Origin: Asparagopsis taxiformis
Taxonomy: Eukaryota > Rhodophyta > Florideophyceae > Bonnemaisoniales > Bonnemaisoniaceae
Length of the DNA stretch: 64,000 nt
Direction: 5' to 3'
Assembly (NCBI GenBank): GCA_030407315.1
Contig: JALQPE010000749.1
Coordinates: forward strand, 1 to 64,000
The notes under the pieces are model-generated. The model had not been told where the DNA came from and searched no databases. It worked only from the letters and a program-made list of their open reading frames with translations. This document shows positions 24,801 to 64,000 of the stretch, piece by piece; positions within the stretch are counted from its first letter, which is position 1, and each line of letters starts with the position of its first letter. The translations under genes were made by a program, and so were the position numbers.

Positions 24801-26264
24801 CCGGTATCCATCCACGACCCGCCCATGCCACCCTCGTACTCCCTCCTTCCCCTCCGCCATTTCTACACACACATCGTGAACAAGATCATGAAGTCGGATC
24901 CCCCTCACTAGCCCTCCCTCATCTTCATCCAGGGATACTAGACTGTGTCTCGAAAACATCCTCACCCTTGCTAGCACATCTTCTACGCCCCACATCTTCT
25001 CGATCACACACAATGGAATACACATCTGCTTTTCCACTACGCAAAACGATCGAAACATCTCCCCCACTGTCATGCTTTTCCCCTTCCACCCTCTCTCCAG
25101 CGACCCTAAGCTCGTCTGGATAGCTGCATCCAGCCCCCCATGTCTACGACCACTCTCTGCATCACGAAGTTCTACACTACTCCGCTTCAGACTCTCCCAG
25201 TATTGCACAATTGCATTCGACCTACACGCATCTGTGCATCGACCAATCACTTCTTGCATCCCAGACCCTGCAATACTCAGTGCCAGTGGTAGTCCCGCAC
25301 ATAGGTCAACAATGTTGTCCAGTGCATCACGATTGCCCGATGACCACGACGCAAGCCTGGTACAGTTGATCCCAGCATATTTGCACAGAATCTCGACGCA
25401 TGTTTCCCTCCGCACATCTCCAGGACTCACTGCAATTGACACATCATGCGTAGGTACACGACCTATCGCCTCATTCCGAGTCGACGTCAGCACCTTGCAA
25501 CTTCCTCCATCCATTTCCTGGACACCTTTGCACGCTGTGTCTACCAGCTTGTAGACAGTGGGATCGAGATCCCACACGTCGTCAAAGATGAGGAGAAAGC
25601 GCTTCGGAACGAGTAGGTCAACAAGCTTCTCCATCATGTTCATATGAGTGTTGTCTTTTGCAGTGAGTTCAACGAATTTGGAGAGGAAATCTGGGAATGC
25701 GTCGGTGACAATCTGCTCCAGCTGGTCCAACAGCCTCTGCACTTTGGCGTCATGACCGAGTTCAATGAACCACACGCCGTCCGGGAACTTTTGCCAAACA
25801 TCTGGATGTCTGCCGAGGGCGCGCAAGATGGTTGTTTTGCCTGCACCACCCATGCCGGAGAGAGCTATGGCGTTTTTGTTCAGGTCATCGGACAGGAGTG
25901 CGTGCTTGGCCTTGCTTTCTGGAGTGCGGGAGTTTCGGGAAAAGTCTAGGACAGTCTGGCGGGAATTTCGGGGGACGTGGAAGACAGCGGACTGTGGGGT
26001 GCGTGCTGGTTGGGTGGGAGACGATGCGGGAGTGGAGTGGGGAAGCGGGTGAGATGGGTGGGACACTGGGTGGAGTGAGGGAGATGATGGGGGCTGCGGA
26101 GGTGGATGGGACTCGGTGGGCGTGGAATCAGCTACGGCGGGAGGGTCAGAAGTCGTTTGATGGGCGTGGTCAGATGCAGGGACAGGATGGGACGGTGGAG
26201 TGACGGTGTTGGAGCGGGTGGAGTCGGGAACAGAGTGGTCTGGTTGAGAGAAGGAATGATGCAT
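21844..26264 (-). pseudogene. NB-ARC/WD40/TIR (NLR-like) gene, copy 2, one 1-nt deletion
   Basis: Two frames, 23292-26264 (990 codons) and 21844-23298 (484 codons), form one protein of about 1,470 residues. Order: Pro/Ser/His-rich N terminus, NB-ARC (P-loop GMGGAGKTTIL, kinase-2 FLLIFDDVW, STRNEAIG, GLPLAL, LHD in place of MHD), helical linker, about ten WD40 blades (for example MVSGSWDGTIRTWD), then a C-terminal TIR (VYDVFISHAGTD) with the Glu of KWTLKEL, which is the catalytic NADase residue in many TIRs. Compared with copy 3, one A is missing near 23393 (CCCAACTTG versus CCCAAATTTG); this alone breaks the frame. The start is MHHSFSQPDH, where copy 3 has MGHSFSQPDH. Family knowledge suggests a nucleotide-gated immune or cell-death receptor. 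A sequencing error or a real pseudogene cannot be told apart. Confidence 0.85.
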
Positions 26265-34100: not shown

Positions 34101-35606
34101 TGCATGATCTTCAGCAGCCCCTTGACTAGTCCGTAGTGATCCCCGGTATCCATCCACGACCCGACAATGCCACTCTCGTACTCCCTCCTTCCCCTCTGCC
34201 ATTTCTACACACACATCGTGAACAAGATCATGAAGTCGGATCCCCCTCACTAGCCCTCCCTCATCTTCATCAAGTGATACTAGACTGTGTCTCGAAAACA
34301 TCCTCACCCTTGCTAGCCCATCGTCTACGCCCCACATCTTCTCGATCACACACAATGGAATACACATCTGCTTTTCCACTACGCAAAACGATCGAAACAT
34401 CTCCCCAATCGTCATGCTCTTCCCCTTCCACCCTCTCTCCAGCGACCCTAAGCTCGTCTGGATAGCTGCATCCAGCCCCCCATGTCTACGACCACTCTCT
34501 GCATCACGAAGTTCTACACTACTCCGCTTCAGACTCTCCCAGTATTGCACAATTGCATTCGACCTACACGCATCTGTGCATCGACCAATCACTTCTTGCA
34601 TCCCAGACCCTGCAATACTCAGTGCCAGTGGTAGTCCCGCACATAGGTCAACAATGTTGTCCAGTGCATCACGATTGCCCGATGACCACGACACAAGCCT
34701 GGTACAGTCGATCCCAGCATACCCGCACAGAATTGCGATGCATGTTTCCCTCCGCACATCTCCAGGACTCACTGCAATTGACACATCATGCGTAGGTACA
34801 CGGCCTATCGCCTCATTCCTCGTTGACGTCAGCACCTTGCAACTTCCTCCATCCATTTCCTGGACACCTTTGCAAGCAATGTCTACCAACTTGTAGACAG
34901 TGGGATCGAGATCCCACACGTCGTCAAAGATGAGGAGAAAGCGCTTCGGAACGAGTAGGTCAACAAGCTTCTCCATCATGTTCACATGAGTGTCGTCATT
35001 TGCAGTGAGTTCAACGAATTTGGGGAGGAAATCTGGGAATGCGTCGGTGACAATCTGCTTCAGCTGGTTCAACAGCCTCTGCACTTTGGCGTCATGACCG
35101 AGTTCAATGAACCACACGCCGTCCGGGAACCTTTGCCAAACATCTGCACATCTGCCGAGGGCGCGCAGGATGGTTGTTTTGCCTGCGCCACCCATGCCGA
35201 CGAGAGCTATGGCGTTATTGTTTGGGTCATCGGACAGGAGGGCGTGCTTGGCCTTGCTTTCTGGAGTGCAGGAGTTTCGGGAAAAGTCGAGGACAATCTG
35301 GCGGGAATTTCGGGGGACGTGGAAGACAGCGGGCTGTGGGGTACGTGATGGTTGGGCGAGAGACAATGCAGGAGTGGAGTGGGGAAGCGGGTGAGATGGG
35401 TGGGACACTGGGTGGAGTGGGGGAGATGATGGGGGCTGCGTCGGTGGATGGGAATCGGTGGGCGCGGAATCAGCTACAGCGGGAGGGGCAGAGGTCGTTT
35501 GATGGGCGTTGTCAGATGTAGGGACTGGATGGGACGGTGGAGGGATGGCGTTGGGGCGGGCGGAGGTGGGGACAGGGTGGTCTGGTTGAGAGAAGGAATG
35601 ACCCAT
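31184..35606 (-). pseudogene. NB-ARC/WD40/TIR (NLR-like) gene, copy 3, one 2-nt deletion
   Basis: Frames 32574-35606 (1010 codons) and 31184-32584 (466 codons) together give about 1,475 residues. MGHSFSQPDH fits the N-myristoylation rule (Gly2, Ser6). A low-complexity linker (to about 130) precedes NB-ARC: P-loop 137-145, kinase-2 FLLIFDDVW about 223-231, GLPL 324-327, LHD 458-460. A helical region follows, then WD40 blades from about 660 into the second frame. The TIR (VYDVFISHAGPD, WTMKEL) occupies about 264-400 of that frame, with Glu339 at the usual NADase position. The only break is loss of one GT unit near 32575: copy 2 has GACGTGTGTGATCGC, copy 3 GACGTGTGATCGC. Coding and upstream sequence are nearly identical to copy 2, so the duplication is recent. 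Function is inferred from family: innate immune or programmed-death receptor. Confidence 0.86.
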
Positions 35607-40064: not shown

Positions 40065-41504
40065 TCATAAATTTCTAGTCCTCAATGCAAGCTTCCATTC
40101 CCTCCGAGACCTCTTGAGAGCAATACAGGGGGTATCTACTGTCGGAGGGGAACAAATTTCTCGTTGTTTCCATGAATGGCGGTGATCCTTATGCAATCTG
40201 CAAGCCATCCTCCAATCTCTTCTTCGTGGAACGCTTTTGGGGCGCAGGGAGTAACCAATATTCCTACTCGTCGTAAGTGAAACGCTGCAAGAATTCCTTT
40301 CCATGTTCTGCACTGTGAATGGCTGGTTATGCGGGTGAGTTTCTCGACTCCGGGCCTTTCCGGGACTGTGAACAGTATAATCATAGAAAGATACTGAAGT
40401 GCTGTTCTGGAATGGGTTATTGGCATGATTCGGGCGGAATTTTGGGGCTGAACGGCTTTGTAATCGACCTGCAAAAGCCTGGGAAAAGAACGCTGTATCC
40501 GTTGACAGGAAGTCCGTGGTAGCTGACGCATATTCGTAGATTATTTTTTGTTGCTCATTGGTCAGCTGAATAGCTTGAATGAAGGCTCTTCCATTAGACA
40601 AATAGTGTCGCAGGGACTTTAGACTTTCCCACCTTCCATGAATGGCAATAGAAGCTGCTTCCATTCCGTTGCAATAGTCGTGTAGGGCGCCGCCAATCCG
40701 CGCTGAATGGGGTGTGAGACTTCCGGGAAGGCCGAAAAAGTGTGCTGCTTCCTTCAGTTTGCCCAAATATCTAGAGTATGTAATTGGAAAGGCTTTGCCA
40801 GTGCTCTGAGTCCCTAATGAATATCGGTGGAGAATGTCCTGAACAGCAGTATCTCGGACAGATATAAACTGAAGCGGACCAGTTTTGGCATCTTTGATGT
40901 TCAAGCCGATAATACACTCGGAAAGGTGACGAGTGCGAGTATCGCCCTTTAGTGCAATATCATTCCAGGAGAGATTAAGTACTTCGGATGCCCTGAGATA
41001 TCCTCCCCATGCAGTTGCGAGTGCTGCCGCCACGACTGGTTCCCTGATACATCGAAGGTAATGTACTATAGCCAGCATAACATGTCGGGTTAGAGGTAGC
41101 GCAGATTTGGAGGGCGTCAATTTGCTCCATCCTTTGAGTGCTCTCCTGGAACGGGGTAACATTCTTGAGAGCTCTGGTGCCACAAGAGTAAGGTGAGATA
41201 ACAGGTTTAGCATATCCTGTTTGCGTCCTGCGGACGAATTATCCATAGCTTGATCGTGGATGTAATCACGAAGAAGCAGATCTAGCTCGTATGGATCTGT
41301 GGGTATTTCAGGTGTGCTTTCTGCGAATCTGTTGAAGGCAGAGAGATATTTGGTGCGTGTACTGGGTTTAAGCGTGTCCCGGACTAAAGGGTAGTCATCG
41401 AAGAGAGTGGGGGCTGTTGTGGCGATGCTTTGGAGAAAACGGTGATTCAAGATGACAGTTTGTTGGTTTGCAGAAACAGCATATTCTTGAGCGCATTTCT
41501 GCAA
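40065..41504 (-). CDS. Tyrosine recombinase of a Crypton-like element, 479 residues
   Basis: The full catalytic set of a tyrosine recombinase is visible: Arg171 in GYLRASEVLNLSW, His266 and Arg269 in TPHSARIGGA, His289 and Trp292 in IHGRWES, and the nucleophile Tyr301 in LRHYLSNG. An N-terminal helical region with a SAM-like core-binding appearance (about 40-130) precedes it. A basic, Arg/Ser-rich tail of about 170 residues follows the catalytic domain. The HSxRIGGA signature occurs in eukaryotic YR elements. The protein would cut and rejoin DNA through a 3'-phosphotyrosine link. It is encoded antisense to the element's left-to-right orientation. The frame continues weakly upstream (to 41697) in a different phase, so a longer ancestral N terminus is possible. 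Confidence 0.82.
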   Translation of the reverse strand: MQKCAQEYAVSANQQTVILNHRFLQSIATTAPTLFDDYPLVRDTLKPSTRTKYLSAFNRFAESTPEIPTDPYELDLLLRDYIHDQAMDNSSAGRKQDMLNLLSHLTLVAPELSRMLPRSRRALKGWSKLTPSKSALPLTRHVMLAIVHYLRCIREPVVAAALATAWGGYLRASEVLNLSWNDIALKGDTRTRHLSECIIGLNIKDAKTGPLQFISVRDTAVQDILHRYSLGTQSTGKAFPITYSRYLGKLKEAAHFFGLPGSLTPHSARIGGALHDYCNGMEAASIAIHGRWESLKSLRHYLSNGRAFIQAIQLTNEQQKIIYEYASATTDFLSTDTAFFSQAFAGRLQSRSAPKFRPNHANNPFQNSTSVSFYDYTVHSPGKARSRETHPHNQPFTVQNMERNSCSVSLTTSRNIGYSLRPKSVPRRRDWRMACRLHKDHRHSWKQREICSPPTVDTPCIALKRSRREWKLALRTRNL

Positions 41505-47253: not shown

Positions 47254-47403
47254 TATTCAACGAAATCGTCGCTGGACGTTCCGCTCCGCCGAGCGGAAGC
47301 GATCCGAATTACGAAGAAGGCTCGCGCGCCTATAACTCGCAATCCTCCCCGGCCGTTCCGGGAGGATACCCACGAACACCCACTACGGTGTTGGGAATGG
47401 AAA

Positions 47404-47640
47404 AAGACAGTAAATTTACTGTCTGAGACAGTAAAAATTACTGTCTGGCCAAGACAGTGCGCGGAGACAGTAAAATTTACTGTCTGGAAATTTCAGAATA
47501 CTGCTGCAGCAATAAACTGGCACGAAATCTGGACAGTACCAAAACAGTAAAATTTACTGTCCAGAACAGTAAATTTTACTGTCCGGAAGTGTTGCCGCCA
47601 GACAGTATGTGCAGACAGTACATTTTACTGTCTGAGGCAA
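47404..47640. repeat. Array of GACAGTAAA palindromes
   Basis: Six inverted repeats built on GACAGTAAATTTACTGTC, starting near 47406, 47427, 47466, 47545, 47565 and 47614, with perfect or one-mismatch arms of 8-10 bases. Extra half sites (GACAGT or ACTGTC) continue to about 47755. Spacing is irregular. It follows the gag-like frame and no confident gene overlaps it. Confidence 0.9.
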
Positions 47641-47844
47641 TGCATTGTATTGGATTACTGCACTGTCTGGGGAAATCTGTAGACAGTAGTGTAGATAGCA
47701 AATTATTGTCTGCGGGTAGAACAGTGCATTGGTTGACAAGACTGTCTGGTGGAGTGGACTTGAGAGGAAATAAACTGCGTATTGTGATTGTGAAGGTAGA
47801 TAATCTGGTACTAGGCCTGCGTAGTAAGATGGCTGAAACTAAAG

Positions 47845-48075: not shown

Positions 48076-48544
48076 TCGAACGGCTGGTTTGGAGTATTGA
48101 GCTGTACGCGCATCGGCCATGGGCACGTGCAGAGCGTGGCTGTCACTTGCGAATAGAATCAAATGTAGTTCTGTAGTGATGGGAGATAACATTATTGTCC
48201 CTAGCACCACCGGTTTCAACCAAGAACACCAATTGACGCCTTGAGAGGAAAGAACAAAATTTTTACATGGCTGATTATTGTTCAGTTTGAGAGCCTTTTA
48301 CGATCACAGTTTTGATGCGCCGAGTGGATCAAACCGTAGATTGTTGGAGTCTGATCCAGTGCGGTCTTCACGTTGCGTCTGGTGAGGTGTACAAGTGGTG
48401 GAGATATGCTGACATTTAAAACATCACCAGCGTGTGGAACAGCCTATGCGCGAGCAGAATGTGTGTTGAGACAGGTGTACGGAAATTGGGGCGAGAGGCA
48501 CACAGAAAGGCTGAACGCAAGATAACGTCTGTGTTCTCGGAAAT

Positions 48545-48810
48545 GGACGCGGACGTCCACAACCTCTAGTACACCTAGTATTACTAGGCGGACGTCCATG
48601 TTCTCCAGTATTTTTGGATGTCCGCCTAGAACCGGACGTCCATGTGGTCTAGTACGTCTAGTATTACTAGGGCGACATTCATTGTTTCTAGTACCACGGA
48701 TGTCCCCCTCGGGATGGACTTCCGCCATGTCTATGTCCACCTAGGACGGGCGCCGGTTCAGAAATTCAAAAATTTCGAGCCCAGAAATTTCTGCCGCCGT
48801 GCTCGACATG
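48545..48810. repeat. Cluster of GGACGTCC / GGATGTCC motifs
   Basis: GGACGTCC occurs near 48552, 48590 and 48634, and GGATGTCC near 48616, 48705 and 48801. Two copies of the palindrome CTAGTATTACTAG (48575, 48658) and an inverted pair CTAGGCGGACGTCC / GGATGTCCGCCTAG lie among them. The same GGACGTCC box with CCGGACGTCCAT context recurs in the large repeats from 50150 on. Confidence 0.75.
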
Positions 48811-50149: not shown

Positions 50150-52300
50150 GGGCCACCAAATTGATTTTTCGGAAATTTTAGAATTTCTGGGCTGGCCAGC
50201 AATGCAATCGAGCTGGACATCCACCGGACGTCCATTTCAGGTTGGTCGTGAGAGAGCGGGGCGGGACCATGATGGAACAAGGACCAAGACCTGTCCCTGG
50301 CGTATTGAGCCTGAAATGACCCTTCGTCAGACGCCATTTAGCCTTACAGTTGGTGCTTACAGAAGCCAGTGATGACCCCGCTCGGGGCGGCGGTCGGTTC
50401 CTGGGGCCGTTGTGGCCAAATTAGACACCCTGATTTGAATTAAAATTTGGGCTATTCTCAAAAACATGCACATGTGAACATGTTTTTGAGATGGGGGTGT
50501 GCCGTACGGCACAATCGACCGCCCAAATCGATGTTTTTGCAATTATTTTTTGTGCCCGAAATTGTAGAATTTCTGGGCTGGCCAGCAATGCAATCGAGCT
50601 GGACATCCACCGGACGTCCATTTCAGGTTGGTCGTGAGAGAGCGGGGCGGGACCATGATGGAACAAGGACCAAGACCTGTCCCTGGCGTATTGAGCCTGA
50701 AATTGACCCTTCGTCAGACGCCATTTAGCCTTACAGTTGGTGCTTACAGAAGCCAGTGATAGCCCCGATCGGGGCCGGTGGCCGGTGCCTGGGCCGTTGT
50801 GGCCAAATTAGACACCCTGATTTGAATTAAAATTTGGGCTATTCTCAAAAACATGCACATGTGAACATGTTTTTGAGATGGGGGTGTGCCGTACGGCACA
50901 ATCGACCGCCCAAATCGATGTTTTTGCAATATTTTTTGTGCCCGAAATTTTAGAATTTCTGGGCTGGCCAGCAATGCAATCGAGCTGGACATCCACCGGA
51001 CGTCCATTTCAGGTTGGTCGTGAGAGAGCGGGGCGGGACCATGATGGAACAAGGACCAAGACCTGTCCCTGGCGTATTGAGCCTGAATTGACCCTTCGTC
51101 AGACGCCATTTAGCCTTACAGTTGGTGCTTACAGAAGCCAGTGATGACCCCGCTCGGGGCGGCGGTCGGTTCCTGGGGCCGTTGTGGCCAAATTAGACAC
51201 CCTGATTTGAATTAAAATTTGGGCTATTCTCAAAAACATGCACATGTGAACATGTTTTTGAGATGGGGGTGTGCCGTACGGCACAATCGACCGCCCAAAT
51301 CGATGTTTTTTGCAATATTTTTCTGTGCCCGAAATTTTAGAATTTCTGGGCTGGCCAGCAATGCAATCGAGCTGGACATCCACCGGACGTCCATTTCAGG
51401 TTGGTCGTGAGAGAGCGGGGCGGGACCATGATGGAACAAGGACCAAGACCTGTCCCTGGCGTATTGAGCCTGAAATTGACCCTTCGTCAGACGCCATTTA
51501 GCCTTACAGTTGGTGCTTACAGAAGCCAGTGATAGCCCCGATCGGGGCCGGTGGCCGGTGCCTGGGGCCGTTGTGGCCAAATTAGACACCCTGATTTGAA
51601 TTAAAATTTGGGCTATTCTCAAAAACATGCACATGTGAACATGTTTTTGAGATGGGGGTGTGCCGTACGGCACAATCGACCCGCCCAAATCGTTGATTTT
51701 TGCAAGATTTTTTGTGCCCGAAATTGTAGAATTTCTGGGCTGGCCAGCAGTGCATCTGAGATGGACATCCACCGGACGTCCATTTCAGGTTGGTCGTGTG
51801 CTGCCTACATCCACGCATTGCAGCAACTAAGCAGGCGAGTTCACTACTCATACAAAGTGCACGGAATACGAGTAACGTGATGGGTGAGTAGTGTTTGTCG
51901 TGGAGGAGTAAGGCAGGACCATGATGGAACAGGGGAAACGATGTCACCCTAGCATAACTTAGGCTTGAAGCCTGGAATCGACCCATCGTTAGGCGCCATT
52001 TAGCCTTACAGTTAGTGCTTACAGAAGCCAGTGATGACCCCGCTCGGGGCGGCGGTTCCGGTGCCTGGGGCCGTTGTGGCCAAATTAGACACCCTGATTT
52101 GAATTAAAATTTGGGCTATTCTCAAAAACATGCACATGTGAACATGTTTTTGAGATGGGGGTGTGCCGTACGGCACAATCGACCGCCCAAATCGATGTTT
52201 TTTGCAATATTTTTTTGTGCCCGAAATTGTAGAATTTCTGGGCCGGCCAGGAATGCATCTGAGTTGGACATCCACCGGACGTCCATTTCAGGTGATCGTG
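50150..52300 (+). repeat. Left array of palindrome-rich 390-bp repeats
   Basis: A partial unit (50150-50425) is followed by units starting GACACCCTGATTTGAATT at about 50428, 50814, 51197, 51589 and 52090, the last partial. Three units are 380-392 bp; the unit at 51589 is about 500 bp, with a different inner segment that recurs at 57045-57240. Each unit contains a long inverted repeat CTCAAAAACATG ... CATGTTTTTGAG around CACATGTG, the palindrome GTGCCGTACGGCAC, and GGACATCC-ACC-GGACGTCC. Reading frames across it are repeats of themselves and are not taken as genes. It ends about 270 bp from the stop of the ParB/dioxygenase gene. Confidence 0.95.
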
Positions 52301-52567
52301 TATCGTGCACGTCCAGCCATTACCAGAAGCAAGTTGGCGATGAAGCACGTATAAACCCAATTGTTCTGCTATTTCTAGCATAGACCATCGAGTCTAGAGA
52401 TGTGAGGGAATCGTCCTGGAATCATGCTCCAACCCACTAGGGAATGGACAATCTAGTTTGAAAGCATGGAACGGAAGTGCATTATAGTAGGTTCATAGAT
52501 TGAAAGTGATAAAGGAGATGATTATATTCTCGATAATTGTTTGCTAAAGTAGTTGTTGTTAAGATAT

Positions 52568-55500
52568 CTAGCCGTCGGAAAACTGTTCTTCCTCTTCGTC
52601 CTCACTATGATAGTGAACTAGATATCCAGGTTGTCCCGGCAGAAGAGGCACTACCGGGGCCACACTCGGTGTGTGCATTACATCCTTGCGAGGTTCTGTC
52701 GTCTTCATCCGCATCATTCGGAGCTGCCCTGTCTTCGGCCTACCATCTTTCTTGACCGGGATGGGAACAACTGTCTTGTGGCGAACATTGACAGGTGCCG
52801 GTTGACTTTGCCTTGCAGACCGGCGCGGAGCATTGGCGATGACTTCTTCTTCGAATCCCAACCGCCTGATGAAACCAAACGAAACATTGTCGGGAATCGG
52901 ATACGACGCATTCCTGAAATACGTGTGATACCTCGTTGTCGTGTGTGACACAACTCTGTCGACATGCCCTGCCCCGGCATGTTGTACATGGCCGTGACCG
53001 ATGAAGACTGAACGTGGCGGAACGATTACCTTCTTCAGCTTCATCGTCTTGGCGTACATATCTAATTCCAGCGCTTTGGAAAAGACGTACTTGTGGGACC
53101 CTGGACACACCCAGATAGGGAATGGGTCATCTCCGTTGGCAATAACAAAGTAACCCGGAAGTTGATCTTTGCGGTCGCGAGGAGGAACAGGGAAATCATT
53201 GTGTGGGACCTGCCGAGGACACCCCTTTCCCGTTATCAAAAACCGTCCCCCAGATGCCGGCATGACAAGTTTTTCTCCCGGTAAACCGCACTCCTCCAGC
53301 CCTATCAGCCGGACAAGGATTCCCAACCACACATCCAGCAGGGCTCGCCGCGTCACAAACTTGAACCGGTCGATATGCGTCTCATCGTTCTCGGCATAGT
53401 CAACCAGGCAGTGGCGCGTAGACGTGAAGCGAGCCCTCCCCTCATTCCGGTTCTTCTCATCTGTTTCATCGTCCCCTGTATTGACAATGGGACTCCACAG
53501 CTGCCGGTTCCCAGGGTCCTTGTGCACCTCCTCACCCTCCCACGTTCCCAAAAAGTACCGAAACAATTCCTGGTTAGGAATTTCTTCCATGAGGCCCAAG
53601 TCAAAGGGGAACTTGTCCGACGCATCGAGGTAGCTTACATCCGCGAAATTGTGCATCACCGTATACCCTCGCTCGTTGATTTCCGTTCGGCAATTGTGGA
53701 AGTACGCCATACCAGTGCCGGCCTCATACGAATCCTTCCAGCTTGTAGACATTCGCGCAACCTGGGCGAAGTCCAGCCTCGAGGGTAGAAACGTCGATGT
53801 AGGCTCACACATCGCCTTGGCAGCCATCTTCCACGCTGCGAAGAACATCGGATAGACGTGATCGATTTCGAATAGCACACGAGCCCGATGTTCTTCCGGA
53901 ATATGCAGCCCCTCAAACACAGGGTCCATCGCCACTTGCTTCAAATACCTCACCTCTCTGCCCTCCTCATCGATTTCCACACTCTCCAATAACAACCTGA
54001 GCTCAATCGGGGGCAGACAGCCAACCCTCACCGATGCGATGACATCCGCGGGACGCTGCGCCAGATGATGCCCTTCGGCTCGGTCTTCGAAATCGTCAGG
54101 AAGAGACGGCATACGGTCGTCGAAGAGGAGGTCGTCTTCAGAAGGAGAGTCACGAACGATGTAACCGTCTTCATCGACTTCCACTCCTTCCGGAACAGTG
54201 AATGTAATTGTCACTTCGCGGACCCCCTTGCTTTCGACTTGGCCCTCGTCTGCACCCTGTTTGTCTTCCTCGTCCGAAGCGGTATGGACAGATTCTTGGT
54301 TGGAGGGAGTCGCACCAGCACGTTGGTTATCTTGGGGGACAATCTCAACGGCAGAATCGGGGGAACGGGCGGAGTCTTCGTCAACCTCATCACCGGAAGC
54401 AGTGGCTTGTTGTTGATCGGTGGGTTTATCAACAACGGCCTGCTCTTCTTCCCCGGCGGATTGTTGTACCACAACCGGCTCTTCTTCCTCGAGGCGTGTG
54501 CTCCCCGTCGAGCGAAGTCGCTGTGAACGGCGGCGGATGCCATGCGAAGCAGGCTCATGTTCGACATTCCGCTGCTTCTTGTGAGTGAGTCTCACATTGG
54601 CAGCAGAAGGGCGGCGTTTGCGTCGAGCCTTAGTCTTCTTCTTCAATGTCGGATTGAAAAACTCTTTCAAGTTCGTTTCCAAATCCTGTAAACGCGTGGT
54701 TCTCCGTCGCATTCGAACCTCACTGCTCCGGTCGTCCCCTCTATACATTGCAATGGCATTGGTGAGATGCCATTGCAACTCCTTCGGCTGCTTAACCGAC
54801 CCAATTGCCATCTCTGTGCTCAGAAATGACTTGCGCATAATACTCTTTGGGCGCCCAAACGCAGCGTACAGAGAATTTGCTATTGCAGTCACGCGACGGA
54901 CGTATGTATAAAAGTCGTTCACGTCAAAGCGTCCATCCGGACGTCCGCCATGAGCAGGGTTCAAGTACTCCGAAAGACCACGCAAGACGAAGACAAAGTT
55001 TTCTTCCAGCAACTCGCGCACTATCTTGTGGTCCAGGTGCGTTATCCCAATCTCGTTGCGGCGCTCGGAATTGTTCAGCTCACGCAACACGTCGTCGAGA
55101 ACAGGATGCTTCAGCGTTGCTATAGCCAAACGCGTCCACCGCCGAGCCGTGTTCGTCGAATTCATCATCCCCATGAACTGCGCCTCGAACAATGTTCGGA
55201 TGACATCAGACTCACGCAAGTCGCCAGCGTTTTCCACGTTGTTTGCAACAGCAATCGTACGGATGAACTGCTGGATGGACGACAAGATTCGAACCAGGGA
55301 GCGCTCCGTCAGTTGCGTCCCAGTCGTATGGTTCGACTCTGCACTCTTGTGGATGATCTCATGAGGCTGGAGATCACTGTCGTCCTTGCGGCGAAGGTAG
55401 TACACATCCAGAGGCTGAGTAACCCAGCGCAAGCGGTTTGCCTCCTGTGGCAGCTTGGTTCTGTGCATACGGGTGAGGCGCGTGAAGTCATCCGCAATGC

Positions 55501-56500
55501 TATGCATAGCATTGAGACGATGCAGTCCGTCGATCACGGTCACGTTCGCATTGGCATGGAATTTGCCATTCTGGAACAGACGCGTGTCGGCGGACAAATG
55601 CGTGTTCTGCGACCTCAGCACCGTCACAGTGATACGCGAAGAGCTCACATACCCCACCGCCAACATATTGTTGCGCAGGTCCTCCACGTGGTCTTCTTTG
55701 ACATCGCGAAGGGTCACGGCCGGTTCCACTAGCTGCCTCACCAACACAGTCGCTCCTTCTCCGACGTAATCCGACGTCACAAACTTGGGCACCATAATTT
55801 GCGTCCCCTGCTGCTCACGAATGCTTTCCGCCACCTCCGGTTCGTCGTCCACCTCGGTTACGTCCTGCGTAGTAGCTTCGGTGACGTTGGAGCGAGCAGG
55901 GTGCTTCGTGCCTCCACTGGAGGCTCTGGCAGAGCGAGCAGGGCGCTTCGTGCCTCCCGAAACCGGGACGGAGCGTGCTGGATGCTTCGTACCCCCCGAA
56001 CCAGTGATTTCGCCTGCTGGACCGGTACTGGGCATCCGTCCCGAGCTGGCCTGGTTCGTCGCTGCGTTGAAGTTTGACGCTGCAGCAGGGGTACGAATGT
56101 CGCTAGAGCCATCCTCCGCAGCGGGGCGCATCATCCGAGTATCCCAAGGGTAAAACGCCGCGGCGTATGCTCCACCCATCGTCTCCGGCGGTCCCTCGGC
56201 GCCATCAAACATGTACGGGAACGGGAGGTCCTTGAACTTGTCCTTAGTCGCAATGTTGCGCACGACGATATAGTCGGCCTCGTCGGTTTCCGGCAGCTTG
56301 TGGTTGTGCAGCGTGCGCGGAAGGCCAACATCGCCACCAGCAGTGCTCACCGAAGCCGTCCCAATATGCACAGCCGCACCGTCCACGTCCGCAAACAAGT
56401 CGACATCGACGCCGCGCTTGAGTCCGCGCGACTCCGCTGACGCGCTCACTTGATCGCCGCAAACCGTTGAAAACAAACTGCTGAAATGCGTATCCGCCAT
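52568..56500 (-). CDS. ParB-like domain fused to PhyH-like 2OG-Fe(II) dioxygenase, 1310 residues
   Basis: The start at 56500 (MADTHFSSLF) is preferred over the in-frame ATG at 56683, because the extension is unlike protein and overlaps a probable leader. Residues 180-215 hold three TK(H/R)PAR repeats. A ParB/sulfiredoxin-like domain follows (about 245-350), with the box VIDGLHRLNA (Asp324-Arg328), then a helical region and a basic stretch (KKKTKARRKRRP) likely to be a nuclear signal. A long acidic linker leads to a C-terminal double-stranded beta-helix: PHNDF gives the HxD iron ligands His1100 and Asp1102, VQHAGAG gives distal His1174, and Arg1190 in TTRYHTYF would bind 2-oxoglutarate. This is the pattern of PhyH-like dioxygenases. 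The substrate is unknown; a nucleic-acid base or a protein is possible, given the ParB part and the methyltransferase neighbour. The frame is fully intact. Confidence 0.75.
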   Translation of the reverse strand: MADTHFSSLFSTVCGDQVSASAESRGLKRGVDVDLFADVDGAAVHIGTASVSTAGGDVGLPRTLHNHKLPETDEADYIVVRNIATKDKFKDLPFPYMFDGAEGPPETMGGAYAAAFYPWDTRMMRPAAEDGSSDIRTPAAASNFNAATNQASSGRMPSTGPAGEITGSGGTKHPARSVPVSGGTKRPARSARASSGGTKHPARSNVTEATTQDVTEVDDEPEVAESIREQQGTQIMVPKFVTSDYVGEGATVLVRQLVEPAVTLRDVKEDHVEDLRNNMLAVGYVSSSRITVTVLRSQNTHLSADTRLFQNGKFHANANVTVIDGLHRLNAMHSIADDFTRLTRMHRTKLPQEANRLRWVTQPLDVYYLRRKDDSDLQPHEIIHKSAESNHTTGTQLTERSLVRILSSIQQFIRTIAVANNVENAGDLRESDVIRTLFEAQFMGMMNSTNTARRWTRLAIATLKHPVLDDVLRELNNSERRNEIGITHLDHKIVRELLEENFVFVLRGLSEYLNPAHGGRPDGRFDVNDFYTYVRRVTAIANSLYAAFGRPKSIMRKSFLSTEMAIGSVKQPKELQWHLTNAIAMYRGDDRSSEVRMRRRTTRLQDLETNLKEFFNPTLKKKTKARRKRRPSAANVRLTHKKQRNVEHEPASHGIRRRSQRLRSTGSTRLEEEEPVVVQQSAGEEEQAVVDKPTDQQQATASGDEVDEDSARSPDSAVEIVPQDNQRAGATPSNQESVHTASDEEDKQGADEGQVESKGVREVTITFTVPEGVEVDEDGYIVRDSPSEDDLLFDDRMPSLPDDFEDRAEGHHLAQRPADVIASVRVGCLPPIELRLLLESVEIDEEGREVRYLKQVAMDPVFEGLHIPEEHRARVLFEIDHVYPMFFAAWKMAAKAMCEPTSTFLPSRLDFAQVARMSTSWKDSYEAGTGMAYFHNCRTEINERGYTVMHNFADVSYLDASDKFPFDLGLMEEIPNQELFRYFLGTWEGEEVHKDPGNRQLWSPIVNTGDDETDEKNRNEGRARFTSTRHCLVDYAENDETHIDRFKFVTRRALLDVWLGILVRLIGLEECGLPGEKLVMPASGGRFLITGKGCPRQVPHNDFPVPPRDRKDQLPGYFVIANGDDPFPIWVCPGSHKYVFSKALELDMYAKTMKLKKVIVPPRSVFIGHGHVQHAGAGHVDRVVSHTTTRYHTYFRNASYPIPDNVSFGFIRRLGFEEEVIANAPRRSARQSQPAPVNVRHKTVVPIPVKKDGRPKTGQLRMMRMKTTEPRKDVMHTPSVAPVVPLLPGQPGYLVHYHSEDEEEEQFSDG

Positions 56501-56847
56501 GGTTGTTGAGTTGGAAAGGAAAAGAGATGGTTGACGTTGACGTATTCGAGTGATGTGGATGGTATGTTTCACGTTAAGTTGAAGAATGGTCGTGAACGCC
56601 AATCGCTGGAAATAATAACACAATACAACCGAAATTTTGTTAGGTACACACCTATCGTGACCGCTGGAATGCAAGACAGGCAATCGAGATGTGAGTGTCC
56701 GTTCAGAACGGGCCCGAGTCGGGCTCTCGAAACCTGACGAGGTGGCGTGAAGCAGGCAGTGTCCTTGATGTGTAATGTGTTAAAATTACAGCTGTCAAGC
56801 TAGGCGGCTTTTGGGGCGGCTGCGAGCACCCCTTTATCCGGGGAACA

Positions 56848-57930
56848 CCCTGATTTGAGTTAAAATTTGGGCTATTCTCAAAAACATGCACATGTGAACA
56901 TGTTTTTGAGATGGGGGTGTGCCGTACGGCACAATCGACCCGCCCAAATCGTTGATTTTTGCAAGATTTTTTGTGCCCGAAATTTTAGAATTTCTGGGCT
57001 GGCCAGCAGTGCATCTGAGATGGACATCCACCGGACGTCCATTTCAGGTTGGTCGTGTGCTGCCTACATCCACGCATTGCAGCAACTAAGCAGGCGGGTT
57101 CACTACTAATATAAAGTGCACGGAATATGAGTAACGTGATGGGTGAGTAGTGTTTCTGTTGAGGGAGTAAAACACGGAAGAAGATTTCTCCCTAGCATAA
57201 CTTAGGCTTGAAGCCTGCAATCGACCCATCTTCCGGCGCCATTTAGCCTCACAGTTAGTGCTTACAGAAGCCAGTGATGACCCCGCTCGGGGCGGCGGCC
57301 GGTTCCTGGGGCCGTTGTGGCCAAATTAGACACCCTGATTTGAATTAAAATTTGGGCTATTCTCAAAAACATGCACATGTGAACATGTTTTTGAAATGGG
57401 GGTGTGCCGTACGGCACAAACGACCCGCTGAAATCGTTGATTTTTTACAATTTTTTTGTGCCCGAAATTTTAGAATTTCCGGGCTGGCCAGCAGTGCAAT
57501 CGAGCTGGACATCCACCGGACGTGCATTTCAGGTTGGTCGTGAGAGAGTGGGGTGGGACCATGATGGAACAAGGACCAAGACCTGTCCCTGGCGTATTGA
57601 GCCTGAAATTGACCCTTTGTCAGACGCCATTTAGCCTTACAGTTAGTGCTTACAGAAGCCAGTGACAACCCCACTCGGGGCGGCGGTCGGTTCCTGGGGC
57701 CGTTGTGGCCAAATTAGACACCCTGATTTGAATTAAAATTTGGGCTATTCTCAAAAACATGCACATGTGAACATGTTTTTGAGATGGGGGTGTGCCGTAC
57801 GGCACAATCGACCCGCTGAAATCGATGTTTTTTGCAATATTTTTTCTGCCCTGAATTGTAGAATTTCTGGGCTGGACAGCAATGCAACTGAGCTGGACAT
57901 CCACCGGGCGTCCATTTCAACTTGGTCTTG
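56848..57930 (+). repeat. Middle array of palindrome-rich repeats
   Basis: Three units start at about 56848, 57332 and 57721, the last partial (diverging after GGGCGTCCATTTCAA). The first is the long variant and closely matches the unit at 51589. Orientation is the same as in the left array. It lies between the two long genes and upstream of the ParB/dioxygenase start. Confidence 0.95.
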
Positions 57931-58147
57931 TATTTTGCATCTGCACGCATAACAGCAACCAAGCAGTCAGGTTCACTGCTCGGACGAAGTGCACCTAGAG
58001 TGTGAACGATTGGTTTTTGACAGGCGAGTACTGCCGAATAGGTTTCACCCTGGACTAATGGTGGCTGGACATTCTGCATTATATGATATACTTCAACTCT
58101 GGAACGTAGCTTTATTTGTAGTCGAAATGAAAACATCTTTCGTGACC

Positions 58148-61100
58148 CTAATTCCATGCTCTAAACGCTGTCCCATAATGAACGTAGAGCTCCTGCCCCG
58201 GACGGATATCGCGGATTGCACGTACTACAATGATCTTCGGATTTTCTAGGTCCTTCGCCTTGAGCTTCTTCCCCGTCGAACCGCTGCTGTAGTTCTCGAC
58301 AAACTCGACGTTGGCCATCCGCCTGGTGTCTTCCGCCGGAGTGTCCTCACCTCGCAAATACCGCGGGTCGTTGATGAACTGCGCCGAACAGAACGGAGCC
58401 GGAACAATCCAAATTGGATGCTCGATGTTTTCGTCGTCCTCCGCTGTTGCATACAGCTTGATAGCATACATCAAGAATGTTTCCTTCGTTATCGCCATGT
58501 GACCCTCTCCGTACGCGAACCTCATCGACTCCTTGCTCATATCAGAGTACACAACAGTTCCGTAGTATGCACATACTTCGTCACCAACATTAAATGTCTG
58601 TTCAGCGAAGAGCCCTCTTCCTGCATTTGGATGCTTAATCAGCGATGGTCGAACGCTCAATTTTTTCGCAACACAATCGTGTGCCCGCATCACGCGAGGG
58701 TTTTCAGTTTGCAACCAGCGGCGCAGGGAAGGTGGCCAATAATGTACCGGTTTCTCCATGTGCTCGCGCGACGCAATCGACTCTGGGCACAGCTGCCAGA
58801 GGTACTGCCGAATATATTTCGGGAACCTCTGGTACAGGGGAAGGCCAGGTGGGGGTTCGATGATCCTGCGTTCCCTCTGCGTACGCATCGTGACAGAGGG
58901 GGACGCCAAGAACTTCTCAGCACTCTGTTTCGCTTCTGTCGTGACCCTCATGTCAGTGTTGTTTGAAAGAATTACACGTGACATGACTGCACACAGCTTT
59001 GGAAGCGATCGTACCACACACAATTTGTCCATGTCACTGCCGACGAAAACACGGTGCTCAGGCAAGCTCATAGCTGCTTTTCCCGTTGCGAAAGTGCCAG
59101 AGAATGGATCGACAACAATATCACCAGGCTGTGAATGCTGGCTGATCAACTCCATCATGAGAGCGACGCTCTTCTGCTCTGCACGAACTCTGACCGTAGC
59201 ACCGGTTGTGCTCCTTGTTCGCCACACCATCTCATTCGAATCGATGGCGGGCATATTGATGGTGACGTTGCACCACGCCGGGTACGTGCCGTCCATGTAT
59301 CCGTGGTTCCTATAGGCCACCATCTCGCTTCCGGTCTTGAACGGAACACCTCGCTTCCAGAAGTGGATAGCGACCTCTGCCATGTTCATGCGTTGGTACC
59401 TCTTCCGCCCCGGCATTTGATAGAGGTGCCCAGGTAGTCGGACAAACAACAGAGGTACCTCGTCAACGAAGAAAACTGAATTCCGAACGACGTCCTCCTC
59501 CTCCTCGTCCTCCTCCTCATCCGCACTTTCTTCGCCACTGTGCTGCGATGCTTCGGAGTCCGAATTCATGGACGTAACCTCTTCTTCATCCGACCCGTCA
59601 TCACTGGCAGCAGTATCGGTTGGGCCTTCTGACTGCGGTCCTTTGTACGTTTCCAAGTAATGGAACCATTCGTAGAACTGCAAAACCGAGCAGAACACGA
59701 TGCCGTGGCCACCGGGGCGCAACAGCTCGTCAAACACTTCGATGCTAGCCTGCATATCTTCTGCAGTTAGCCTGTCGTACGAAGAGTTGGAATCGTTCCT
59801 CTTACGACGAACATTGTAGGGCGGATCAGTCAGAATGAGCTGAACGTTGCCCGTGATGGGCACGTGTTCTCGGCTCTCGTCGGCACTGACCAAATCTTCG
59901 AAAGGGACGTCGTACACCCGGCAATACTGACTCATTTTCGAAAGAAAGTCCTTTGCGAGAGCCTGCCCTTCACTTTCCTGCTCTTCTGTCGCATGGGGTG
60001 ACGGTGACGGGGGAGACGGCCCTTGGGCAGTAAGACTGGTCCTCCCAGGTCCAAGTTGAAGCCTGGTTGTGTGTCTTGTCGACGGAACCAAACCTCTCCC
60101 TCCTGTGTTGCGACGAGTGGGAGTGTCATCAACCGGCTTGGGGACCTTTTCTGCGTCCGCGGCTTGTGGTGCCGGGCGGAGGACAGCCATAACGTCTTCG
60201 TCGAGGGTGTCAAAATACGCTGGCAGCTTGTCCGGATTTCCGCTTGAGAAGTATATTTCCAGTGCCCCCCAGCGGTCGGACTCCGGCCAGGTGTACAGGT
60301 CCGGGTTGACGATAAGAAACTGCAACCGGTCGAAGAACTTCCTCACAAGGTCCCTAAATGCACTGTGCTGCGCACTGGTTCTTGTCTCTACTTTTCCACC
60401 ATATCCATCAGGATGAGATAGGGGAGCTTTGTTGTGGTAGAGATCTAGCTTCTGCTCCATCGGTGCGAATAGACCTTCATCGAGCACGTCAAACCAATGC
60501 TCACTGCTGTCGAAAATGATGTACGGCGCCATCAACTCTTCGAAGCTGGAAAACTTTGCGGCGTAGGCCACATCGGTCCAAGCATGGTATAAAACTTGAA
60601 CCACGTAACAAGCTCGATTAGTGCTTTTCCGATGGGCTGGGACGCGTGCGGCTTCGTTCCCCTCTTCGGCCGCATCTCCTATTCGGCGACGCGGCAGGTT
60701 CTTGTTGTGATTTCGGATGATAGACAACGCTTGGAAATACATCAATACCTCGAACGTTTCCGGTGGAGCAAGAACGAAGGCGCTTGGTTCCCCGCGCTGC
60801 GGCGCCTGTAGTGGCGAAGGAAGCATGTTACATCCAATAAGGAAGGTCTGCGGCACGATCCCAGAAAGGATGCAGTGCTCAACCCATTGCCCGATACGCT
60901 CATCCTGTCTTGAAAACTCGGCAATGGGTAATGCCAGACGAACAATCTGCTTGGCTCGCTCAACGTTCATCTCTGCCATGACGATTTCGGCAACATCCGC
61001 CTCGACTCCAGCATTCTTCGAACGACCGCTGAAGGACATGCTGAGTCGACCTTGCAGCGCCACAAATTGTTCTTCCGTGCCCTGCGCAACCCAAGCGCCA

Positions 61101-61345
61101 AGGTCCGCGTATGTGAAACCTCCCGGCTTGTCCGTCAAGTCTGCGAAACTTGAGTGGGCGAATAAATCCAGCAAGAGGCGGAGGAAGTCTTTGCCAGCGA
61201 GAGTAGTTTCGCGGGCGGCGCGACCTACGTTTCGACGTGTACCCATGTCACTAGAATCCTCCCAAGGGCTAGCGGGTTCGCGCAGAATTGGCACGGTTGC
61301 GTCGTCAACGATCGGATTGCTGTTGCGCCTGCGCTTATTCGTCAT
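58148..61345 (-). CDS. Beta-group N4C/N6A-type DNA methyltransferase fused to SET domain, 1065 residues
   Basis: The start at 61345 (MTNKRRRNSNP) is chosen over an in-frame ATG at 61603, whose extension looks non-coding. Residues 1-480 are an unrecognised helical region. The methyltransferase has motif IV LTDPPYNV (Asp507-Tyr510), an acidic insertion, and motif I VVDPFSGTFATG (Asp746 onward). Motif IV before motif I is the beta-group order of prokaryotic and phage amino-methyltransferases, unlike eukaryotic METTL3-type or C5 enzymes. DPPY is typical of N6-adenine but also occurs in N4-cytosine enzymes. Residues about 898-1065 form a SET domain: AGRGLFAEQTF, AQFINDPRY in the place of the NHS/C motif, and ELYVHYG; no post-SET cysteines. 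It could methylate DNA and a histone or other protein. The gene sits inside inverted repeats, downstream of and parallel to the ParB/dioxygenase gene. No lesion. Confidence 0.85.
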   Translation of the reverse strand: MTNKRRRNSNPIVDDATVPILREPASPWEDSSDMGTRRNVGRAARETTLAGKDFLRLLLDLFAHSSFADLTDKPGGFTYADLGAWVAQGTEEQFVALQGRLSMSFSGRSKNAGVEADVAEIVMAEMNVERAKQIVRLALPIAEFSRQDERIGQWVEHCILSGIVPQTFLIGCNMLPSPLQAPQRGEPSAFVLAPPETFEVLMYFQALSIIRNHNKNLPRRRIGDAAEEGNEAARVPAHRKSTNRACYVVQVLYHAWTDVAYAAKFSSFEELMAPYIIFDSSEHWFDVLDEGLFAPMEQKLDLYHNKAPLSHPDGYGGKVETRTSAQHSAFRDLVRKFFDRLQFLIVNPDLYTWPESDRWGALEIYFSSGNPDKLPAYFDTLDEDVMAVLRPAPQAADAEKVPKPVDDTPTRRNTGGRGLVPSTRHTTRLQLGPGRTSLTAQGPSPPSPSPHATEEQESEGQALAKDFLSKMSQYCRVYDVPFEDLVSADESREHVPITGNVQLILTDPPYNVRRKRNDSNSSYDRLTAEDMQASIEVFDELLRPGGHGIVFCSVLQFYEWFHYLETYKGPQSEGPTDTAASDDGSDEEEVTSMNSDSEASQHSGEESADEEEDEEEEDVVRNSVFFVDEVPLLFVRLPGHLYQMPGRKRYQRMNMAEVAIHFWKRGVPFKTGSEMVAYRNHGYMDGTYPAWCNVTINMPAIDSNEMVWRTRSTTGATVRVRAEQKSVALMMELISQHSQPGDIVVDPFSGTFATGKAAMSLPEHRVFVGSDMDKLCVVRSLPKLCAVMSRVILSNNTDMRVTTEAKQSAEKFLASPSVTMRTQRERRIIEPPPGLPLYQRFPKYIRQYLWQLCPESIASREHMEKPVHYWPPSLRRWLQTENPRVMRAHDCVAKKLSVRPSLIKHPNAGRGLFAEQTFNVGDEVCAYYGTVVYSDMSKESMRFAYGEGHMAITKETFLMYAIKLYATAEDDENIEHPIWIVPAPFCSAQFINDPRYLRGEDTPAEDTRRMANVEFVENYSSGSTGKKLKAKDLENPKIIVVRAIRDIRPGQELYVHYGTAFRAWN

Positions 61346-61639
61346 AATGGAATGAGTGGAAAATTCGGTACAGGATGGCGACCGCTCGGCGAGACAGTCA
61401 AATTTGACGACGTATCTCGTGACGTTTGCACTCTTTCGTGAGGAACACTGGTTGATATCGAACGGAACAGAGTATACGGGTACACAGCACTGGAAAGGTC
61501 TTGAAACCCGTAACCGGTGTAGGTAATAAGTTGTGACGGATACGTGGTAGAGAAAAAATTTTAAAAAGATTGTGATTCCCTGCCTTTGAGTGTTGTACTG
61601 CAAGGCCGCCAGTCACATAGGTTGACACAGGTGCCTCAC

Positions 61640-61857
61640 GCTTACCAGGTGAGCGACATCCGGACGGCCACTGGACGTGGGGATGTCCGACTCAGATGCA
61701 TTGCTGGCCAGCCCAGAAATTCTACAATTTCGGGCAGAAAAAATATTGCAAAAAACATCGATTTCGGCGGTCGATTGTGCCGTACGGCACACCCCCATCT
61801 CAAAAACATGTTCACATGTGCATGTTTTTGAGAATAGCCCAAATTTTAATTCAAAGC
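61640..61857 (-). repeat. Inverted partial unit of the 390-bp repeat
   Basis: Read on the minus strand it contains the AAAATTTGGGCTATTC ... GTGCCGTACGGCAC part and diverges after GGCCAGCAATGCATC. Its GGACATCC box is rearranged (GGATGTCC, CCGGACGGCC). It lies upstream of the methyltransferase-SET start. Confidence 0.9.
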
Positions 61858-62126
61858 AGGATGCAGATATTCGTCTTCTACCATTGTCAGAACACATTCG
61901 TATAACCACATTTGGAGAACCTGAGCCCAGAGCTATCGGTTTTGGCGGGAGCTAAGCCATATCTCATATAATCAGTAACTACTTCCCGCCAGCTGAGTGG
62001 TGGAACCCCTGCTATTTCTACCAACGAGACATACGGGGTGTCAACTCGGCAATCGTATATGATTTGGGTGCTAAATTTATTCAAGAGACGAATGGGCTTC
62101 GAAAAGGAGCCCAACTACGTCTACTT
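61858..62126. other. Unassigned sequence inside the element
   Basis: No gene or repeat recognised. Confidence 0.3.
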
Positions 62127-62490
62127 GTGATCCATGGGTATAGGACTATTCTATTCTTCTCCAGGCTTCCACCGTAGCCGCCTCCTCCGCCTCCGTTAAT
62201 GGAAAGAATATCCGAACCGCACCTCAACATGTTCTTCATGTGATCCATGGGTACTGACATCTCACATGCTCTCCAGGCTTCCACCGTAGCCGCCTCCTCC
62301 GCCTCCGTTAATGGCAACAATATCCAAACTGGACCTCTACATGTTTTTCTTGTGATCCATGGGTACTGACATCTCACATGTTCTCCAGGCTTCCTCCAAA
62401 GCCGCCACCTCCACCTCCGTTAATGGAAAGAATACCCGAACCGCAGGCTTCCTCCATAGCCGCCTCCACCTCCGTTAATGGCAAAAACAT
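62127..62490. repeat. 112-113-bp minisatellite
   Basis: GTGATCCATGGGTA recurs at about 62127, 62240 and 62352. Each unit contains CTCCAGGCTTCC.CC and CCGCCTCC.CC.CCTCCGTTAATGG; a fourth unit is partial. On the minus strand the units can read INGGGGGGYGGSLE, glycine-rich, but the frame is not kept across units. Confidence 0.85.
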
Positions 62491-62954: not shown

Positions 62955-63510
62955 AATGCATTACTGGCCAGCCCAGAAATTGTAGAATTTCGGGCAGCAA
63001 AAATATTGTAAAAAACCTTGATTTGGGCGGCCGATTGTGCCGTACGGCACACCCCCATTTCAAAAACATGTTCACATGTGCATGTTTTTGAGAATAGCCC
63101 AAATTTTAATTCAAATCAGGGTGTCTAATTTGGCCACAACGGCCCCAGGAACCGACCGCCGCCCCGAGCGGGGTCATCACTGGCTTCTGTAAGCACCAAC
63201 TGTAAGGCTAAATGGCGTCTGACGAAGGGTCAATTTCAGGCTCAATACGCCAGGGACAGGTCTTGGTCCTTGTTCCATCATGGTCCCGCCCCGCTCTCTC
63301 ACGACCAACCTGAAATGGACGTCCGGTGGATGTCCAGCTCGATTGCATTGCTGGCCAGCCCAGAAATTCTAAAATTTCGGGCACAAAAAAATATTGCAAA
63401 AAACATCGATTTGGGCGGTCGATTGTGCCGTACGGCACACCCCCATCTCAAAAACATGTTCACATGTGCATGTTTTTGAGAATAGCCCAAATTTTAATTC
63501 AAATCAGGAC
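62955..63510 (-). repeat. Right-hand, inverted array of the 390-bp repeat
   Basis: On the minus strand a full unit runs from about 63507 to 63123, followed by a partial unit to about 62955. Both carry the same palindromes as the left arrays. The full unit is almost identical to those at 50428 and 51197 although they lie 12 kb away in opposite orientation. Confidence 0.95.
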
Positions 63511-63742
63511 GTCTTCCGGACATAGGGGTGCTCGCGGCCTAGCTCGACAGCTGTAATTGTACCTCATTAAATACTGTTGATGACTGCCTACCGTATACAA
63601 TCTGGGCTGTTGGCGTATTATCCGGTACTTGATTGACCTGACCTGACGTTCATCGCAGACCGTTGTGGTTACCGACACTATACAGCAATCTTTTTGTATC
63701 TCGTGCAACTCAATCGTTCCATCGCTTCCGGGAAAGCTTCAT

Positions 63743-63934
63743 TATGCCGCCGCGTATTGCGAAGAAGCTCCAAAGCCTCCGGGCCTCCAGAAAACCCGGT
63801 CAGCAGCTGCTGTATCGAGTGCCCGACAATCCCGTGCGAAGAAGCGGTCTGGGCCTACCGGCAGCATTGAACCGCGGTCCGGTAGTCGCAAGACGGACCG
63901 GCGCAGAACTGGGATCCGCAGCGAGAAAGTGAGG
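63743..63934 (+). CDS. Hypothetical basic frame near the window edge
   Basis: MPPRIAKKLQSLRASRKPG opens a 63-residue basic frame. A second overlapping frame (63665-63997, Arg/Lys/Ser-rich) stays open almost to the window end and may be the true continuation after a splice or frameshift. No domain recognised; flanks the right end of the putative element. Confidence 0.25.
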
Positions 63935-64000
63935 AAGGAGGAACGGCGCGGAGAGAGATGGGGCTTGACCGAGGCAAGCGTGCTCGCAGGGCAGTGAACA

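Follow-up and report, generated by a model that had tools for sequence, protein, structure and literature searches.

Two long genes lie next to each other on the minus strand of a stretch of red algal DNA, and the question is what kind of genetic unit carries them and what their products might do for it. The stretch (the window) is the first 64,000 nucleotides of contig JALQPE010000749.1 (C749) of Asparagopsis taxiformis, from assembly GCA_030407315.1 (141.5 Mb); the contig ends at position 64232. The genes are ORF1 (52568-56500, 1310 aa), whose product has a ParB-like region and a dioxygenase-like fold, and ORF2 (58148-61345, 1065 aa), which encodes a DNA methyltransferase with a SET domain. 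The original prediction described them as a two-gene selfish system embedded in palindromic repeats. The two open frames proved real, neither is disrupted, and the pair does belong to a selfish element, though not a two-gene one: ORF1 and ORF2 are the left and middle of a four-gene element of about 23.4 kb, whose transposase gene lies outside the window. It is near certain that they are part of a DNA transposon with a Plavaka transposase. The element is large and recently active, and the window holds its left and middle part, the right part being cut off. It has terminal inverted repeats (TIRs) and, in most of the copies tested, the same 2 bp on either side; its transposase frame is intact, each gene is present in about 1000 copies, and a segment carrying ORF2 occurs in two orientations in the assembly.

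The four genes per element, ORF1 to ORF4, were identified from other copies in the host assembly. Three copies were fetched (C110, C436 and C476). All are about 99% identical to the window in DNA up to the window end. In all three the identity extends further, by kilobases in C110 and C436 but by only about 0.3 kb in C476. Copy-to-copy DNA comparison places the full element at C436:158330-181714, a span of 23,385 bp, because similarity of C436 to the window begins at 158330 and similarity between C436 and C110 stops at 181714.

The palindromic arrays do not bound the element. Its ends are TIRs of about 34 bp, the left one (CGTCTGTGTTCTCGGAAATGGACGCGGACGTCC..., 48526-48559, plus strand) lying where identity with C436 begins. 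Window 48525-48559 matches the C436 right end (L107:6565-6531) in inverse orientation over 35 bp at 94%. The termini were fixed as CGTCTGTG..CACAGACG, because every one of 30 distinct ends has a C before GTCTGTG. Flanking dinucleotides are equal in four of six tested copies, namely TA/TA in C436, and AA/AA, TG/TG and AT/AT in three of five further pairs. This corresponds to a target-site duplication (TSD) of 2 bp, within the range of 2 to 3 bp looked for. The chance of four equal pairs in six is 0.0002 at 1/16 each, and somewhat higher given the AT bias of the flanks. The termini of fungal PlavakaA (TGT..ACA) and PlavakaB (CATCA..TGATG) are absent, and the element was assigned to neither lineage.

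ORF4 is the Plavaka transposase (PF18759, E=1.7e-24, 87.1 bits against a cut-off of 26.3), located at L107:558-3665 on the minus strand in C436; its length is 1012 aa, counted from a chosen Met. A genome search for Plavaka scored 123 matches of 1208 candidates, many of them in frames of about 1036 codons. ORF3 lies on the plus strand, and its 5' part (MPPRIAKKAPKPPG..., 63744-64000) runs on past the window. It consists of two overlapping frames, the extra part being read from C436, which suggests that it carries an intron; its product is perhaps a coiled coil, given only sub-threshold coiled-coil matches.

The expectation that ORF1 and ORF2 recur together with the same repeats was borne out within this genome, where neighbourhoods were compared. 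With up to 2 mismatches, the 36-mer of ORF1 occurs at 907 genome places (447+460), that of ORF2 at 971 (478+493), that of ORF3 at 1003 (517+486) and that of ORF4 at 971 (458+513). A TIR 32-mer with two ambiguous positions occurs 1223 times per strand, and the reversed-pattern control gave 0 for every one of these patterns. Were the copies mostly full length, they would add up to about a sixth of the assembly. This figure is an upper estimate, because cut copies of the C476 type and shorter members of 10-11 kb exist. Three of these shorter members (C12:264415-275482, C14:6194-17320 and C20:598-10639), known from their ends alone, share those ends with the element, and in each the flanking dinucleotides are equal. 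Of the end loci, 30 were fetched (29 distinct ends), and every one proved related to the reference ends, its best match lying between 86.9% and 100%; the element has therefore probably spread in several waves.

Copies were also compared for signs of selection. ORF1 is intact in C436 and differs from the window by 7 synonymous and 2 nonsynonymous changes, while ORF4 differs between C436 and C110 by 1 synonymous and 0 nonsynonymous over 932 codons. Together 2 of 10 changes are nonsynonymous, compared to an assumed neutral 75% (p=0.0004, a small sample); the broken ORF1 of C110 was left out of the count. In a protein search of the host, all 43 scored copies of ORF2 (of 4133 candidates, the window's included) are stop-free and 100% identical, and across 21 copies the DNA varies at 5 sites, all synonymous. 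This was not used as evidence for selection, because those copies were chosen by protein identity.

ORF2 has an N-terminal helical region followed by a methyltransferase and a C-terminal SET domain, and here Pfam bears out what had been read from the sequence. The methyltransferase matches PF01555 (E=4.1e-15), with DPPYN (507-511) and DPFSGT (746-751) in one domain, and the order, DPPY before the S-adenosylmethionine motif, is that of a beta-class N6/N4 amino-DNA methyltransferase. The SET domain matches PF00856 (E=1.1e-6), and Y927, Y928, G929, N992, D993 and R995 are invariant in eight aligned proteins. On its sequence, ORF2 is classed as a fusion of a beta-class amino-DNA methyltransferase with a SET domain. 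No chromodomain was matched in ORF2 at E<=10. Among 5.8 billion proteins (8000 candidates scored) seven relatives were found, one at 98% identity and the rest at 28-33%, and all eight family members match phrog_67, a DNA methyltransferase.

ORF1 combines a ParB-like region (DGLHR) with a PhyH-type 2-oxoglutarate (2OG)-Fe(II) dioxygenase fold (HND...H). A search of the same size gave six relatives of 24-37% identity, and a second-round profile search added none. Since relatives were found for both ORF1 and ORF2, both are real protein families. DGxHR is invariant in all seven ORF1-family proteins, and the HxD residues are also kept. Structure matches to the predicted model are PhyH-type oxygenases, with a double-stranded beta-helix and HxD...H; one of the match lists covered the dioxygenase part only. 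Among the fold matches are phage ParB/Spo0J proteins, with E values of 1.4e-3 or weaker, the matched range of the model being unspecified. Thus the predicted ParB and PhyH domains find support in motifs and modelled fold, the dioxygenase better than ParB. Tet_JBP gave no match in ORF1 or its six relatives at E<=10, which leaves room for a remote kinship with TET/JBP.

A virus origin was considered and rejected: 78 viral loci were found for ORF2, phage-type methyltransferases matching mostly over short parts, and none for ORF1. In 3396 frames from these loci the best hmmsearch match was unrelated (E=0.043), and a ParB-like frame reached E=0.28. A tblastn search for ParB against phages and plasmids gave nothing significant (best E about 1 or more), a single row annotated as a ParB-like partition protein having E=2. 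In a Foldseek search with the ORF1 model, the Scv136-like protein of a nimavirus (Metapenaeus ensis) heads the BFVD rows, at E 5.2e-4 over 652 columns and with a root-mean-square deviation of 44. This is a lead only, and the protein possibly has the two domains of ORF1. In C476, ORF1 breaks at the position of window 55497 and is fused to a 396-bp piece (L103:6934-7330) resembling window 47381-47773 inverted.

The arrays, built of 387-bp units, are internal to the element. Array 1 (50172-52388, plus strand) lies 3' of ORF1. Array 2 with its head module (56773-58017, plus strand) lies upstream of ORF1 and flanks ORF2. Array 3 consists of a solitary partial unit upstream of ORF2 (61672-61863, minus strand) and the array proper (62956-63569, minus strand), which runs in the opposite direction to arrays 1 and 2; window 56773-57057 matches 63569-63300 inverted at 86.7%. 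The head module of about 96 bp, with its array, precedes the starts of ORF1 and ORF3 by about 275 bp and about 175 bp, respectively, and the arrays therefore look like shared promoter modules. The palindrome GGACGTCC is common to arrays and element ends: the window has 12, all at or beyond 48551, of which three are at or beside the left end (48551, 48590 and 48634; 48551-48641), eight in arrays and one in ORF1, and the C436 right end has two. A 16-bp perfect palindrome, TGTGCCGTACGGCACA, occurs at 11 window places, and its extended 23-mer form, with up to 1 mismatch, at 6988 genome places (3525+3463; reversed-pattern control 0). An ORF2-only element of 6.8 kb with arrays 2 and 3 as terminal repeats was rejected, because identity between copies continues far past both. 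Between ORF2 and ORF3 there is also a 112-bp tandem repeat of 2.6 copies (62158-62445).

Arrays 2 and 3 flank ORF2 in inverted orientation, for example as a 373-nt inverted repeat at 96%. Gene pairs were counted among the places listed (100 per search), on contigs up to C276. From the 69 ORF2 places listed, ORF2 and ORF3 lie on the same strand in 39 of 46 pairs and on opposite strands in 7, while ORF3 and ORF4 are on opposite strands, 2292-2381 bp apart, in all 76 pairs among the 98 ORF3 places listed. Both ORF1 and ORF4 are listed near 17 of the ORF2 places. Of these, 12 are opposite to both, four are on the same strand as both and one is mixed; neither gene is listed near 15 of the 69. The ORF2 segment between the inverted arrays is therefore present in two orientations in the assembly, and the window carries the rarer one. 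Long inverted repeats such as these are a familiar trap for assemblers, and the two orientations might be assembly errors instead of real isomers. We consider this rather unlikely, as both recur with tight spacing, 3334-3528 bp in the 39 same-strand pairs and 4547-4942 bp in the 7 opposite ones.

No C5-DNA methyltransferase (PF00145) was detected in the host by a search that does not read through introns and whose control matched in 10 of 14 prokaryote genomes, and CpG is not depleted (observed/expected 0.96). It is therefore unlikely that the enzymes act on host 5-methylcytosine (5mC). Better candidates are protein marks, or else N6-methyladenine (6mA) or N4-methylcytosine (4mC) deposited by an enzyme of the element. 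Host searches for Tet_JBP and MT-A70 were uninformative, their controls matching nowhere either.

We propose that ORF2 modifies both DNA, by amino-methylation (6mA or 4mC), and chromatin, by methylation of lysine. For its part, ORF1 would be a site-binding protein, its ParB-like region recognising the palindromes in the 387-bp arrays and at the ends, and it may oxidise a methyl or other group at the palindromes to which it is bound. Together they would control the state of the chromatin at the promoters and ends of the element itself, whereby the element could escape or tune host silencing and time its transposition. The arrays are treated as control sites because they lie upstream of ORF1, ORF2 and ORF3, and recombination between arrays 2 and 3 would invert ORF2. 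That the element writes or erases marks on its own repeats, as first suggested, remains plausible. The whole account, a Plavaka transposon whose enzymes set the chromatin state of its promoters and ends and whose ORF2 inverts between arrays, is in our view fairly probable. Taken separately, a role of ORF1 and ORF2 in epigenetic control falls a little short of that, as something that may or may not hold, and the reading of the arrays by ORF1 is doubtful.

Several observations weigh against this account. The ParB and PhyH regions of ORF1 find no sequence-profile support in Pfam, PDB profile, PHROGs or NCBIfam searches, and the predicted model of ORF1 is weak overall (mean pLDDT 54.5). ORF1 is whole in only one of the three fetched copies, with a stop at residue 1049 in C110 and a cut in C476. 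DPPYN is present in the window's ORF2, P0007 and P0008, while the other five relatives have DPPQ, YPPY, APPQ, DPPL and DPPF; the aromatic residue is lost in three of the seven relatives (P0009, P0011 and P0012), and methylation may therefore not be needed everywhere. Two of the six TIR pairs have unequal flanking dinucleotides (TG/TT and AC/TA), although the further pairs were picked as facing ends and these two may not be single elements. The controls of the PF00145 search were all prokaryote, and introns were not read through.

The same enzymes might regulate the transposition reaction and not silencing, with amino-methylation of the ends timing cutting to replication and ORF1 acting as an end-binding accessory. 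Dam methylation acts in this way for IS10/Tn10, and GATC is the N6-adenine target of Dam. The GGACGTCC palindromes at both ends fit this idea, and no 4-mer in the element is depleted more strongly than GATC (32 against 62.6 expected, arrays left out, the parts counted including window 52389-56784 and 58018-61671). This is a weak hint, since the flanking DNA is depleted as well (176 against 233; z -3.7 compared to -3.9 in the element). The idea also gives the SET domain no role, and we regard it as unlikely, if still a serious competitor.

The ParB-like region could alternatively bind the array palindromes as parS-like sites, with partition or a centromere-like behaviour maintaining the element. 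The ParB/Spo0J fold matches and the abundance of TGTGCCGTACGGCACA, in the window and in its extended form genome-wide, are in keeping with this; nothing else favours the ParB-driven maintenance raised in the original prediction. Copies lie on many contigs with matching flanks, the element has a transposase, and a ParA-like match is absent from the two ORF3 pieces and ORF4, to which that search was limited. Such maintenance is highly improbable. Hardly more probable is that the genes are captured passengers, which hitch-hike or serve the host. The broken or cut ORF1 in two of three copies and the shorter members sharing the same ends would be expected of passengers, but the four genes have similar 36-mer counts, ORF1 differences are mostly synonymous, and DGxHR and HxD are kept among distant relatives. 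The similar counts suggest that the cargo travels with the element, which it may help.

The element would offer a natural high-copy system for studying whether eukaryotic mobile DNA is protected or silenced by marks on DNA other than 5mC. It has about 1000 copies, at least 43 with identical ORF2 protein, in a host with no detected C5-methyltransferase. At its fullest, the proposal is of a complete epigenetic switch independent of 5mC, in which ORF2, as a fused writer of DNA and histone marks, and ORF1, as an oxidiser that reads its sites, would act on the palindromic arrays at their own promoters. Inversion of the ORF2 cassette would alter the regulatory state, and in this way the element could have reached about 1000 copies and come to occupy perhaps a sixth of the genome. 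This full version we think improbable.

Elsewhere in the window are NLR-like frames (NB-ARC, WD40 and Toll/interleukin-1 receptor (TIR) domains) at 4598-7910, 21844-26264 and 31184-35606. The last was assigned as a repeat of the second, about 9.3 kb away and 84-95% identical, and the domain scan covered the other two. A 479-aa frame at 40065-41504 has a weak tyrosine-recombinase (phage integrase) match, below the cut-off (E=3.1e-4).

The combination of ORF1 and ORF2 as cargo was not found in a literature search, nor in the accessible parts of three reports (PMC12730594, PMC11244446 and PMC8885841), whose systems nevertheless resemble the element in part. TET/JBP dioxygenases are carried by fungal Plavaka and other DNA transposons and are thought to counter epigenetic silencing (Kojima 2025, PMC12730594). 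As far as that account goes, the shared features are a Plavaka transposase, TSDs of 2-3 bp and a 2OG-Fe(II) dioxygenase cargo, whereas the dioxygenase of the present element has a PhyH-type fold and is joined to a ParB-like region, a methyltransferase-SET protein is added, the termini differ and the host has no detected C5-methyltransferase. HarbingerS and MuDR elements of Phytophthora carry SET histone methyltransferase genes (cited in PMC12730594), and are likewise DNA transposons with a SET-domain protein, but they belong to another transposase superfamily, and in the present element the SET domain forms one protein with a DNA methyltransferase. N4CMT of bdelloid rotifers is a bacterial-type beta-class amino-methyltransferase in a eukaryote without C5-methyltransferases (PMC8885841). 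It resembles ORF2 in joining such an enzyme to chromatin machinery; as described there it is a host gene with a C-terminal chromodomain, whereas ORF2 is transposon-borne and has a SET domain. The giant Plavaka repeats of Amoebidium reach 50 kb and carry several genes and a Plavaka transposase (PMC11244446). They are similarly large and multi-gene, but are reported with tandem gene clusters and many tyrosine recombinases in a 5mC genome, and the cargo here is different. Transposons that carry epigenetic enzymes are already known from fungi and oomycetes; set beside these systems, it is the cargo pair and the invertible cassette that look new.

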